DNA of 64,000 bases from an uncultured Clostridia bacterium (GTDB lineage: Bacteria; Bacillota; Clostridia; Oscillospirales; Acutalibacteraceae). Where the stretch lies: assembly GCA_945876745.1 (NCBI GenBank), contig CAMCPL010000004.1:111082-175081 (forward strand), given 5' to 3'. This document shows positions 38,394-63,350 of the stretch, piece by piece. The position numbers and the translations under genes were made by a program. Below the pieces are notes generated by a model, which worked only from the letters and a program-made list of their open reading frames with translations, did not search any database and had not been told where the DNA came from. Each line of letters starts with the position of its first letter. The stretch's first letter is position 1.

Positions 38394-38419
38394 GGTGTTA
38401 TGAAAAATAAAGAAAAGAG

Positions 38420-38468
38420 GTTCTATAATAAATGTTGGAGTTCCCACCCTAACATTTATTATAGAACC
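38420..38468. repeat. Near-perfect palindromic element, copy A
   Basis: GGTTCTATAATAAATGTTGG begins it and the complementary AACATTTATTATAGAACC ends it, with a 12-nt asymmetric centre (AGTTCCCACCCT). The same left end and the reverse complement of the centre recur at 63950-64000, so it is a dispersed element in two orientations. It looks like two transposon ends fused without a body; ISL3-type ends are a guess. Confidence 0.6.
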
Positions 38469-38471
38469 AAA

Positions 38472-38501
38472 AAAAAGCTCTTGAAAAATCAAGGGCTTTT
38501 T
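38472..38501 (-). terminator. Terminator of the probable 6S RNA
   Basis: AAAAAGCTCTTGA - AAAA - TCAAGGGCTTTTT; symmetric A and T tails let it work in either direction, and on the minus strand it ends the 6S transcript. Confidence 0.8.
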
Positions 38502-38703
38502 GTAATCCGCATATCCGCCTATGCCGAATATAACCTGCGGGTAAAAGCAGGTGGGTATCTCCCAAAATACTTTGTGCTCCCAACGTCCTCGTAATGAGGG
38601 AGGTCTGCATTCCCGTAAATCGGAGTCAGATTCCCTAATTTATAATGTTTGTTCGGGTTATTTGGGCGATAGGTTGTCGTGATACGCAGACTGTTATTAT
38701 TGT
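38474..38703 (-). ncRNA. ssrS: Probable 6S RNA
   Basis: About 230 nt on the minus strand between a TATAAT (minus strand, 38710-38715) and a terminator. The two ends pair: TCTGCGTAT near the 5' end with ATATGCGGA near the 3' end, then CCTAT with ATAGG, leaving a long rod with a central open region. The 3' half carries GGGAGATACCCACCTGC and a TTTT loop closed by GCAGG, which I recall from Clostridial 6S RNAs. 6S RNA binds the sigma-70-type RNA polymerase holoenzyme and mimics an open promoter. Identity rests on size, fold and remembered motifs, not on a model search. Confidence 0.6.
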
Positions 38704-38723: not shown

Positions 38724-39041
38724 TTACTGTTCGGGCTCAAAATATTCAACGTCGTATTTCTTTTCAACCATAGACATAAGAATATCGGAAACCTGTTCGT
38801 ATTCAATATCGTCTTGAATTTCCTCAAGATATTCATCGCCGTTTTCGTCGTTTACAACCTTGAGAATAATTACCTCATAGTCGGCTTCAACAATTTCCTC
38901 GGCAACATCGTGATATTCTGTTATTGCAACATATACGTCATCGTCTGTTTCATATCTTTCAAGAAGCTCAAAAACTATTTCATTTCCGTCTTCGTCCGTA
39001 ACCGAAAGCAAATCCGGCTCGTAGTATTCTTCGTTTTCCAT
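38724..39041 (-). CDS. DUF1292 family acidic protein
   Basis: 105 residues, about a third Asp and Glu, no membrane segment. DLLSVTDEDGNEIVFELLERYETDDDVYVAITEY (about 9-42) and YEVIILKVVNDENGDEYLEEIQDD near 55-78 are typical DUF1292 blocks. In Firmicutes DUF1292 proteins are often linked to the yrrK-yrzL(ireB)-alaS region; function is unknown. ATG at 39041 lies 7 bp after AAGGAG; a GTG two codons earlier is less well placed. It is transcribed divergently from the structured RNA and toward the 6S RNA. Confidence 0.85.
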   Translation of the reverse strand: MENEEYYEPDLLSVTDEDGNEIVFELLERYETDDDVYVAITEYHDVAEEIVEADYEVIILKVVNDENGDEYLEEIQDDIEYEQVSDILMSMVEKKYDVEYFEPEQ

Positions 39042-39069
39042 AAGCACACTCCTTATATGTGATAAATCT

Positions 39070-39156: not shown

Positions 39157-39185
39157 TTGACATTTAACAAAAAGCGTGTTATATT
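39157..39185 (+). promoter_or_regulatory. Strong promoter of the structured RNA
   Basis: TTGACA (39157-39162), 17-bp spacer, TATATT (39180-39185). Near-consensus, and followed by no protein gene on this strand for over 2 kb. Confidence 0.85.
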
Positions 39186-39275
39186 AAAGGTGAACTAAGA
39201 GAGATGAACTTAGTACCAATTAAATATACAGGAGGTTAAAGTATGAAGCTACAGATTGATAGTTCAGCCACCTGT

Positions 39276-39616
39276 GAGGTATCCCAATAAATAACGGAAC
39301 TTCGATGCCGCGAGTATTAAAACGGAATTAATCACCGGCAAATTTCTTTAGAGAACAAAACAGTTATTGCAGAATTGGTAAGTACCCATAGGTGTCGGCA
39401 AAACTGAATAGTAAGGATATATATTTTTTAGATTATTATCTGCAAATAATCAGAGTAGATGGCTCTATAAATTCAAGCTACAAATTTGTGAGGTAAACTC
39501 CAATGTACTAATTAGTTTATTTCAAGATTAAAGAAATGAGGTAAACTCCAATGGGCTGAAAAGACCTGTTATATAGTAAGTTGTAAACCCAACTGAAATT
39601 GAGGTATAGTCCAATG
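39276..39616 (+). repeat. Four-copy GAGGTA..CCAATG motif within the structured RNA
   Basis: Copies at 39276-39289 (GAGGTATCCCAATA), 39490-39505 and 39538-39553 (both GAGGTAAACTCCAATG) and 39601-39616 (GAGGTATAGTCCAATG). Copies 1 and 2 also share AAGCTACARATT upstream (39246-39257, 39475-39486). Copy 1 is the 5' strand of the central helix; all four could pair with the single 3' strand at 39374-39386. Confidence 0.75.
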
Positions 39617-39646
39617 TACAGTTAAATAAAACTAAATATCAATTTG

Positions 39647-39674
39647 CTCCCGACTGAAAATGTCGGGAGTTTTT
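39647..39674 (+). terminator. Terminator of the structured RNA
   Basis: CTCCCGAC - TGAAAAT - GTCGGGAG perfect 8-bp stem followed by five T residues. Confidence 0.92.
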
Positions 39675-39728
39675 CATTGTGTTACCATATAAAAAGGGAA
39701 TGTAACAAAACTTACATTCCCCAACATA

Positions 39729-40610
39729 TTACATTTCGCTTGCCTGATACGCTACGCCGAGAAGGGCGGAATCATTACCCATTTTACTTCTGACAATTCT
39801 TACATTTTTGTAGTTGTCCATAAGTTTGTTATATATCTTACGGTCTATCAACTCTATGATGTAATCCTCGTTCATAATTCCGCCGCCCAGAACTATAAGC
39901 GGAGGATTGAAAATGTAAATAATATTTATTAAACCGATAATTATTTCATCAATCCACTTGTCGATTTCGCTTCTTATTTCCGGTTTATCTATGTTTTCTC
40001 TTTGGAAAATTTGATAAGCGTCAAGCTCTTCCTTTGATACCTTGTTTACCGCTTTAATGAGTGCATTTGCCGATGCATAACATTCAAAGCAGCCCTCACC
40101 TCCGCAGGTGCATTGCTTTCCGCCGCCGTGAATTATCATATGTCCGAGTTCACCTGCAGACGAACCTGAACCCTTAAACAGCTTATTATTCATAAATATT
40201 GCACCGCCGATGCCTGTTCCGAGTGCAAGACAAATAAAATCGCTTTCGCCCTTTGCTGCACCGAATTTTGCTTCGCCCATAGCGGCAGCGTTTACATCGT
40301 TTTCAACAAAGGTCGGTATGCCGGTTTTATTCTCAATCAGCTTTTTAACCATCATACCGGTGTAGTAGGGAATATTGCCTGTTGAATACACAACAATACC
40401 GTTTTCACTGTCAACCTGACCTGCCGTTGAAACGGCAATTCTGTCAATATTTTCGTATTCCTCAATAATTTTAATAATGCGTTCGATTATAGCCTGACCG
40501 CCTTGTTGCGCATTAGTCGGGATTTTATGTTTTTCGACAATGTGGAAGCTGTCGTCAATAAGTCCGTATTTAATAAATGTTCCGCCAATGTCAAAGGCTA
40601 AAATTTTCAT
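39729..40610 (-). CDS. nanK: ROK family kinase, probable N-acetylmannosamine kinase NanK
   Basis: 293 residues. Phosphate-binding FDIGGTFIKYG at 5-15, the sugar-binding END motif (VENDVNAAAMGEA near 101-113), and the ROK zinc motif GHMIIHGGGKQCTCGGEGCFECYAS near 146-170 with His and three Cys ligands. ROK kinases vary in substrate; pairing with NanE (four-base overlap) and the divergent NanA makes ManNAc the likely substrate, giving ManNAc-6-phosphate for NanE. Glucokinase activity is the alternative. Confidence 0.85.
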   Translation of the reverse strand: MKILAFDIGGTFIKYGLIDDSFHIVEKHKIPTNAQQGGQAIIERIIKIIEEYENIDRIAVSTAGQVDSENGIVVYSTGNIPYYTGMMVKKLIENKTGIPTFVENDVNAAAMGEAKFGAAKGESDFICLALGTGIGGAIFMNNKLFKGSGSSAGELGHMIIHGGGKQCTCGGEGCFECYASANALIKAVNKVSKEELDAYQIFQRENIDKPEIRSEIDKWIDEIIIGLINIIYIFNPPLIVLGGGIMNEDYIIELIDRKIYNKLMDNYKNVRIVRSKMGNDSALLGVAYQASEM

Positions 40611-63169: not shown

Positions 63170-63183
63170 CAACTAAACCACCC

Positions 63184-63350
63184 TAACGGGTGGGTGAAAT
63201 ATTGCTTCGAAATGTGAAATTCTCGCTTCACTCGAGTGAAATCGCTGCGGCGGTGGGTGGATTTAATTTCACATTTTGCGTTAGCAAAATATTTCACCAA
63301 AGGCGAAAGCCTTTGATTTCACCGTGCGATCGCACGATTTCACTTATAAT
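63184..63350. repeat. Mosaic of short palindromes joined by GATTTCAC/GTGAAATC
   Basis: Consecutive small palindromes, TTCACTCGAGTGAA, TTTTGCGTTAGCAAAA, AAAGGCGAAAGCCTTT and CGTGCGATCGCACG, are separated by copies of ATTTCAC or its complement GTGAAAT (at least eight). The outer parts also pair (GGTGAAATATT with AATATTTCACC). This looks like a composite intergenic palindromic repeat. No gene is seen in it. Confidence 0.7.

Follow-up and report, generated by a model that had tools for sequence, protein, structure and literature searches.

The window, that is, the whole stretch of 64,000 nucleotides that was analysed, contains a transcription unit lying between a DUF1292 gene and a ROK-family gene. 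The features of this locus are, in order of position:

38500..38695, minus strand: 6S RNA (RF00013), beyond the DUF1292 gene; 40.3 bits, just below the cut-off of 46.4
38724..39047, minus strand: DUF1292 gene (PF06949), a divergent neighbour kept in relatives
39157..39185, plus strand: predicted promoter TTGACA-N17-TATATT, its -10 preceded by TG
39191..39674, plus strand: predicted transcript of ~484 nt (about 485), with a start placed from the promoter
39194..39214, plus strand: P0, 5' hairpin ACTAAG..CTTAGT, read by eye and lying outside the covariation model
39230..39235, plus strand: Shine-Dalgarno site of ORF1, AGGAGG, which can pair with CCACCT at 39268-39273
39243..39290, plus strand: ORF1, 15 codons, MKLQIDSSATCEVSQ
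39270..39393, plus strand: helix P1 (39270-39275 with 39388-39393; 39279-39281 with 39383-39385; 39284-39288 with 39374-39378)
39306..39340, plus strand: P2 (39306-39309 with 39337-39340), around a hairpin whose loop is AACGG
39369..39443, plus strand: pseudoknot, GCAGA (39369-39373) with TCTGC (39439-39443)
39431..39451, plus strand: hairpin GATTAT..ATAATC, whose loop bears the 3' pseudoknot strand
39452..39466, plus strand: hairpin AGAG..CTCT, the last of the fold
39490..39511, plus strand: mini-frame 1, GAGGTAAACTCC A ATG TAC TAA (M-Y-stop)
39538..39559, plus strand: mini-frame 2, GAGGTAAACTCC A ATG GGC TGA (M-G-stop), its AUG 48 nt after that of mini-frame 1
39601..39625, plus strand: mini-frame 3, GAGGTATAGTCC A ATG TAC AGT TAA (M-Y-S-stop)
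39646..39674, plus strand: predicted intrinsic terminator, 9-pair stem and T-run
39729-40610, minus strand: ROK-family gene, 3' of the terminator

The original prediction had placed here a stand-alone RNA with a near-consensus promoter and a strong terminator, and comparison with homologues bears it out: a matching promoter was found by pattern search in 55 of 60 homologues and a terminator pattern likewise in 55 of 60. The promoter scan returned 7 promoter-like sites when 4.9 were expected, so that the promoter call depends mainly on conservation. The distance from promoter to terminator is 456-883 (median 525) in the 50 homologues with both ends located. Downstream of the RNA, the sequence differs among relatives. 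Given the terminator and a next gene on the opposite strand, the unit does not have the layout of an element acting in cis on a downstream gene. On the other side, a 6S RNA was detected beyond the DUF1292 gene in all 20 homologous loci scanned, 11 of them at or above the cut-off. Between a NAD-dependent epimerase-like gene and this 6S RNA, positions 38416-38471 form a near-perfect AT-rich hairpin of ~20 pairs followed by a second terminator-like hairpin; the permissive Rfam matches there look like chance. Elsewhere in the window, a Gut-1 RNA (RF01706) was found at 63170-63247 on the plus strand (57.6 bits, above the cut-off), downstream of a five-tRNA cluster.

A DNA search of 60 relatives gave matches in 31. 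The RNA occupies the same place in 25 same-genus loci, adjoined by the DUF1292 gene in 24 of them; the 25th contig begins just before the RNA. Of 80 genomes from the genus, 60 gave the RNA with a covariance model built from 15 sequences; among the good assemblies these were 44 of 51. A better model applied to the 20 genomes left unmatched gave 7 hits, all weak (E up to 1); one of them, L110, was accepted by its layout as a diverged copy. The order-wide search with the first model matched only the genus (2/295 genomes), and a family search with the second model matched 10 of 300 genomes. These include two clear new genera (L123, E 1.7e-26; L124, E 1.6e-21) and a candidate further genus (L127, E 0.0048). 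The DUF1292 gene adjoins the RNA in L110, L123, L124 and L127, and 6S lies beyond it in the last three; membership of L127 is supported by this pair of neighbours. Several candidates were rejected: L125 and L126, which lie in apparently protein-coding DNA, a second match in L002 (E 0.00097) and, from a set of 30 loci, L026, L027 and L029 (promoter-like pieces from other genera) and likewise L028 and L030. A mobile element was also considered and dropped, as the 13 phage records that match do so only with short promoter-side pieces (query 7-53). Plasmid records gave no match to the RNA, and viral contigs none to one ORF1 pattern. An ORF1 pattern, which covers part of the ORF1 types and leaves the window's own type outside, was found on 25 contigs among 84,980 named genomes, most of them titled Eubacterium, Ruminococcaceae, Eubacteriales or Clostridia and one Candidatus Eubacterium faecigallinarum; one Bacteroides-titled and one Clostridium-titled contig may be labelling errors. 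The carriers are gut bacteria labelled Eubacterium, of a genus that we take to be Eubacterium_R in GTDB.

The original prediction had further described nested helices in the first 220 nt and proposed covariation among homologues as their test. The structure was confirmed, and its extent has to be corrected: the covarying part spans about 39230-39466 and includes a pseudoknot. Folding of the sequence alone gave a z of -2.64, with none of 100 shuffles equally stable. The fold was read by eye and its pairs were then counted in two alignments, A1 with 15 of 24 sequences and A3 with 47 of 60, the latter fitted to the model and omitting long-insert and most diverged rows. In the 15 clade-A sequences, 31 of 47 pairs have both sides changed somewhere, and pairing holds in 87.0% of cells, against 32-44% in controls with slid partners; in the 47 sequences, 40 of 47 pairs, pseudoknot included, vary on both sides and 86.5% of cells are paired, against 37-46%. 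None of 500 shuffles reached the observed values in either alignment, except for further pair types in the 15-sequence alignment (2/500). The RNA thus has compensatory changes in a conserved fold, as expected of a structured non-coding RNA.

Most elements of the fold are well supported in the 47 sequences. P2 and its inner hairpin, whose loop is AACGG in one clade, are paired at 98.9% and 93.6%, and 10 of 10 pairs change on both sides. The first segment of P1 is 93.9% paired (6/6 pairs changing on both sides), the hairpin at 39431..39451 95.3% (6/6) and the last hairpin 98.7% (5/5). The pseudoknot, which in the fold read by eye is GCAGG:CCTGC with its 3' strand within a hairpin loop, is 99.6% paired and changes on both sides at 2 of 5 pairs. 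The third, innermost segment of P1 is poorly aligned (56.9% paired) and the ORF1 hairpin, in which the Shine-Dalgarno site of ORF1 lies, reaches 59%; both are poorly served by one cross-clade alignment and, by eye, have a clade-specific pairing register. Three members (L011, L019 and L023) carry an extra 5' domain of ~240-350 nt between promoter and ORF1 (about 300-400 nt); these domains are mutually similar, with conserved stretches such as GGTGGCTGGTAAATCGCAGGGTTTCCGC, and the other members do not have them.

The unit had been thought to hold no credible gene. This was incomplete, as it missed the 15-codon ORF1 and three minimal frames, each led by a Shine-Dalgarno site. The Shine-Dalgarno site of ORF1 is AGGAGG in 57 of 60 RNAs and AGGGGG in 3. 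The second half of ORF1 is also one strand of helix P1, and since CCACCT overlaps the P1-forming strand, its predicted pairing with the Shine-Dalgarno site would compete with P1.

The tail between the fold and the terminator carries the minimal frames. In 60 RNAs we counted 144 sites with a Shine-Dalgarno, CC-N-AUG and an early stop, i.e. one to four per RNA (33 RNAs have two, 18 three, 5 four and 4 one). The pattern used to choose them asks for CC ahead of the AUG and, further 5', for a purine-rich stretch, so that this part of the motif is built in, and the rows are related, so that the counts are not independent events. The stop is codon 3 in 99 sites and codon 4 in 26; in another 19 it comes later, and codon 2 is a stop in none. 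The background stop frequency of the tails is 0.094. Thus 99 of 144 sites have the layout of a two-codon minigene (Shine-Dalgarno, start, one sense codon, stop) and 26 have two sense codons; the window has two sites of the first kind and one three-codon site. At least one site stops by codon 4 in all 60 RNAs, but only in 42 of them do all such sites do so. Codon 3 is TAA in 70 sites, TAG in 20, TGA in 9 and TGG in none; in the sites where it is a sense codon, the stop often follows at codon 4. Endings such as TAC-TAA, GGC-TAA, CAC-TAA, TAC-AGT-TAA and TAC-AAG-TAA take each other's place; the early stop is thus preserved through different letters, for which a simple sequence motif would have no need. 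Codon 2 is variable and the predicted peptides are MY, MG, MF, MH, MD, MYS and MYK; hence it is not the peptides that are kept. Pairing of the mini-frames with the core, or a GG..CC hairpin at each site, was looked for by eye and discarded, the letter counts showing no convincing covariation.

The sites are also regularly spaced. Among 84 AUG-to-AUG distances the minimum is 45, and 63 fall within 45-65. Where a terminator was located (55 RNAs), none of 81 distances is below 45, against a mean of 48 when sites were placed at random (lowest of 2000 runs: 36). Sixteen distances are of 95-120, and in 13 of these a further Shine-Dalgarno-led frame of 10-14 codons, starting with ATG or TTG, lies midway. 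The last AUG is at least 15 nt from the terminator stem in all 55 RNAs; in the window, the AUG of mini-frame 3 is 63 nt past that of mini-frame 2 and 32 nt before the stem. These minimum spacings (45 nt, and 15 nt to the terminator) are roughly the room that bound ribosomes need, given the size of their footprint. Fold, frames, spacing and conservation can all be read directly in these sequences.

The tail Shine-Dalgarno sites are as strong as those of gene starts: the mean anti-Shine-Dalgarno energy is -7.1 for sites, -6.1 for genes and -2.1 for random places, and the medians of sites and genes are both -7.0. By predicted pairing, the sites are not more accessible than their surroundings in the tail (unpaired 0.40 vs 0.47), which speaks against the reading of the tail as ribosome sites. 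None of 57 gene starts in the window, called by a crude rule, has the form CC(A/C/G)ATG. Of GAGG-N5-9-(T/A)CC(A/G)ATG there are 75 occurrences within the RNAs, against 3 outside them in 195,630 bases of loci (both strands); in the whole own genome there are four GAGG-N5-9-CCRATGNNNTRA, two of them in this RNA, and none in the reversed control. As the CCRATG motif is rare both at gene starts and elsewhere, it is not the ordinary style of gene starts here.

Short-frame arrays were also searched for in the rest of the order. A loose two-site pattern matched at 76 places, spread over 69 of 394 genomes; the reversed control gave ~29, so that the background is high. Eight of the 76 places, picked by eye for an early stop, were fetched: three are array-like (L148, L149 and L152), two have a single MG frame (L150 and L151) and three have single short frames (L153-L155). 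In L148, from another family, a consensus promoter is followed by M-G, M-Y and M-F frames, at distances of 75 and 71 nt, and by a terminator; the 307 nt that were folded gave a modest fold (z -1.74; 5 of 100 shuffles as good). L157, from the genus of L148, has six or seven short frames, MR and MF included, four of them after GGAGGTACRGTCC or GGAGGTACGATCC. In L149, from a third family, a 15-codon MSNTEPVQQWQARGR, which resembles the ORF1 of the genus (MDLEPVQT...), is followed by M-H-K and M-Y; its starts are kept in three related genomes, one with M-Y then TGA and one with CC-C-ATG, and L161 shares part of its head. L152, from a fourth family, has M-Y-N, MGDYR, M-A-S and MGDYK. The arrays outside the family are more widely spaced, at 71-75 nt in L148 and as much as 190 in L157, and their homology rests on motif and layout, not on alignment. 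Judged in this way, common descent with the window RNA is likely for L149 and plausible for L148, L157 and L152. A sharper one-site pattern matched 32 of 391 genomes at class level, with two matches within 100 nt in the own genome only; most of the other class-level matches look like chance.

Two kinds of single frame were seen on the way. In L150 and L151, of another family, a promoter and one M-G-stop minigene are followed by several hundred bases of GA-rich repeats (e.g. GGATTTGGAAG, GATCAAAGGATT) without evident genes, possibly a long RNA. In L153, L154 and L155, Shine-Dalgarno-led frames of 3-5 codons with a CCAATG start lie just 5' of apparent protein genes and are possible cis-acting minigenes in Clostridia.

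Because starts with an immediate stop, one per ribosome footprint, recur in all carriers, we regard the engagement of ribosomes as the point of the tail. Our preferred reading, put forward tentatively and at somewhat less than even chance, is a new class of RNA that engages ribosomes in futile mini-frames, as a translation decoy or sensor. If the RNA is transcribed from its promoter and loaded with ribosomes, as we infer, each tail site would take up a ribosome that makes a di- or tripeptide, stops and reloads. Any effect on the cell would then come from initiation capacity tied up by the RNA, acting as a decoy or a translation sensor and coding for no protein. The tail would be the effector, and the folded head would set when or how it is used: a ribosome translating ORF1 would open P1, so that the fold may switch with translation. 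Further points speak against a decoy. With one to four sites, the RNA would need to be very abundant to matter, and so strong a covariation of the core hints at a separate role, which the decoy treats as secondary. A broader version, unlikely as it stands though worth stating, would make these arrays an order-wide class of stand-alone ribosome-trap RNAs, in which tandem minimal frames, one per footprint, tune translation by futile initiation and termination, and in which the pseudoknotted head present in the genus, opened by ORF1 translation, controls the trap.

A serious competitor, itself only a minority prospect, is that the folded core does the work and that ribosomes on the mini-frames merely shield the AU-rich tail, with ORF1, from nucleases or from transcription termination. 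Single minigenes have been proposed to stabilise their own transcript in cis, as have the two-codon minigene of axe-txe and the six-codon one of the LEE4 leader (PMC8708949); here the sites are located in the tail, outside a core that is kept by compensatory change at 40 of 47 pairs. This covarying core argues for a function of its own, and the odds between shielding and decoy are therefore close. Shielding leaves unexplained why a 200-nt tail in need of armour exists at all, and it fits poorly with L148, which with its 307 nt and modest fold looks mostly array. Our preference for the decoy or sensor rests on the array, which is the part found again in other families and appears to make up nearly all of L148.

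The array might instead act through its products, if dipeptidyl-tRNAs fell off the ribosome, tied up particular tRNAs and so tuned translation. Two-codon minigenes can indeed be toxic through such drop-off, the last codon being decisive (PMC8708949), and codon 2 of the tail sites is not random, ending in C in 127 of 144. It is nevertheless spread over TAC (63), GGC (25), CAC (14), TTC (11), GAC (10) and 21 others, which indicates no single tRNA, and many frames have two sense codons past the AUG, making drop-off improbable.

We consider equally improbable that the sites mimic mRNA starts and titrate a small RNA or a protein binding GAGGU..UCCRAUG. The stretch from Shine-Dalgarno to AUG is itself conserved (A at -6 in 85%, T at -4 in 76%) and recurs in other families as GGAGGTACRGTCCRATG. 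However, a binding site alone needs neither an early stop that changes its letters nor a minimum spacing of 45 nt, and with the motif so rare elsewhere (the 3 occurrences given above), the examined DNA shows no set of mRNAs to protect. A sponge of the csrA/CsrB type was dropped, as GGA is not constant in the sites.

A small polycistronic mRNA, whose products would be ORF1 and a 10-codon frame of the MLRKFI type, is a shade less probable still. ORF1 is 15-17 codons long in 53 of 60 RNAs and is open in frame in 55, a stop falling within codons 2-14 in 5 of 60 against 46 and 40 of 60 in the other frames; the MLRKFI-like frame recurs within one clade. Against this, the length of ORF1 differs in 7 of 60 RNAs, the di- and tripeptides vary, and the nonsynonymous-to-synonymous ratio of ORF1 is 0.63 in its own frame and 0.69 and 0.78 in the two others, so that its amino acids bear little sign of selection.

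The RNA was finally compared with known families. The original prediction could not assign it to any, and Rfam covariance models agreed, with no match to the RNA in scans of the window (at the gathering threshold), of the element and of 20 homologous and 11 more distant loci. With permissive filters, the best match on the strand of the RNA was manA-II (19.2 bits against a cut-off of 100). In the window and these 20 and 11 loci, ROOL, GOLLD, OLE, tmRNA, SRP, RNase P, T-box and other Rfam families gave no match to the RNA, while the same scans did detect 6S, T-box and tRNA in the flanks; ARAGORN found no tmRNA in the window, and the only 6S match nearby was that at 38500-38695 on the other strand, the RNA itself being unmatched by RF00013. 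An identity with raiA, which had been suggested, is not supported: RF03072 does not match the RNA in the window, the 20 homologous or the 11 distant loci. A raiA search of 30 relatives gave 0 matches, as it did in its control genomes, so that it says nothing of the genus as a whole. That this is a known RNA (raiA, 6S, RNase P, T-box, ROOL, GOLLD or OLE) diverged beyond the reach of Rfam is very improbable given these scans, even though its size and pseudoknot are within the range of large bacterial RNAs and raiA is given two pseudoknots (PMC11706538). Excerpts of the openly licensed PMC literature on minigenes, minimal-ORF RNAs and large structured RNAs, among them PMC11109978 and PMC12286853, contain no description of such an RNA. 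We therefore regard the architecture of the RNA as new; its function is predicted.

Several known systems come close to this RNA. STAB-SD elements are Shine-Dalgarno sites that stabilise an RNA through ribosome binding; unlike them, the tail has several sites, each with an AUG and an early stop. The 6S RNA is a non-coding RNA that occupies RNA polymerase. It is a conserved neighbour and would offer a formal parallel in occupying a core machine, the predicted partner here being the ribosome; between the two RNAs there is no relation of sequence or structure. The axe-txe, LEE1 and LEE4 minigenes resemble the tail frames in their strong Shine-Dalgarno, AUG, stop and AU-rich surroundings, and in them the frame matters, not the peptide (PMC8708949). 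The two-codon minigenes of axe-txe and LEE1 share with the tail frames the single codon between AUG and stop, and for the six-codon minigene of the LEE4 leader, ribosome binding alone sufficed (PMC8708949). These minigenes act in cis on a downstream gene (PMC8708949), whereas here one to four frames stand in a row, roughly ribosome-spaced, behind a folded domain and in a transcript with a predicted terminator at its end. With raiA / ModT (RF03072; PMC11706538) the RNA has in common that it stands alone, is pseudoknotted, ends at a terminator of its own and comes from Bacillota; it differs in lacking a match to that family in sequence or structure and in having reading frames, which the excerpts of PMC11706538 do not describe for raiA. 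With ROOL, GOLLD and OLE it shares being a large structured stand-alone RNA of poorly understood function (PMC12286853). It differs from them in having no Rfam match and in combining a small folded core with a tail of frames, an array of which is not mentioned in excerpts of PMC12286853.

The usual division of bacterial RNAs is into coding and non-coding ones. This RNA appears to keep the signals of translation, Shine-Dalgarno, AUG and stop, in several copies about one ribosome apart, and to discard the protein. If ribosomes do load on it, translation itself would be its way of acting; it would belong to a class overlooked by searches for long frames and by searches for purely structural RNAs alike, and how cells meter their initiation capacity would become testable. 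If true, a trap RNA of this kind would be for the ribosome the counterpart of what the neighbouring 6S RNA is for RNA polymerase.
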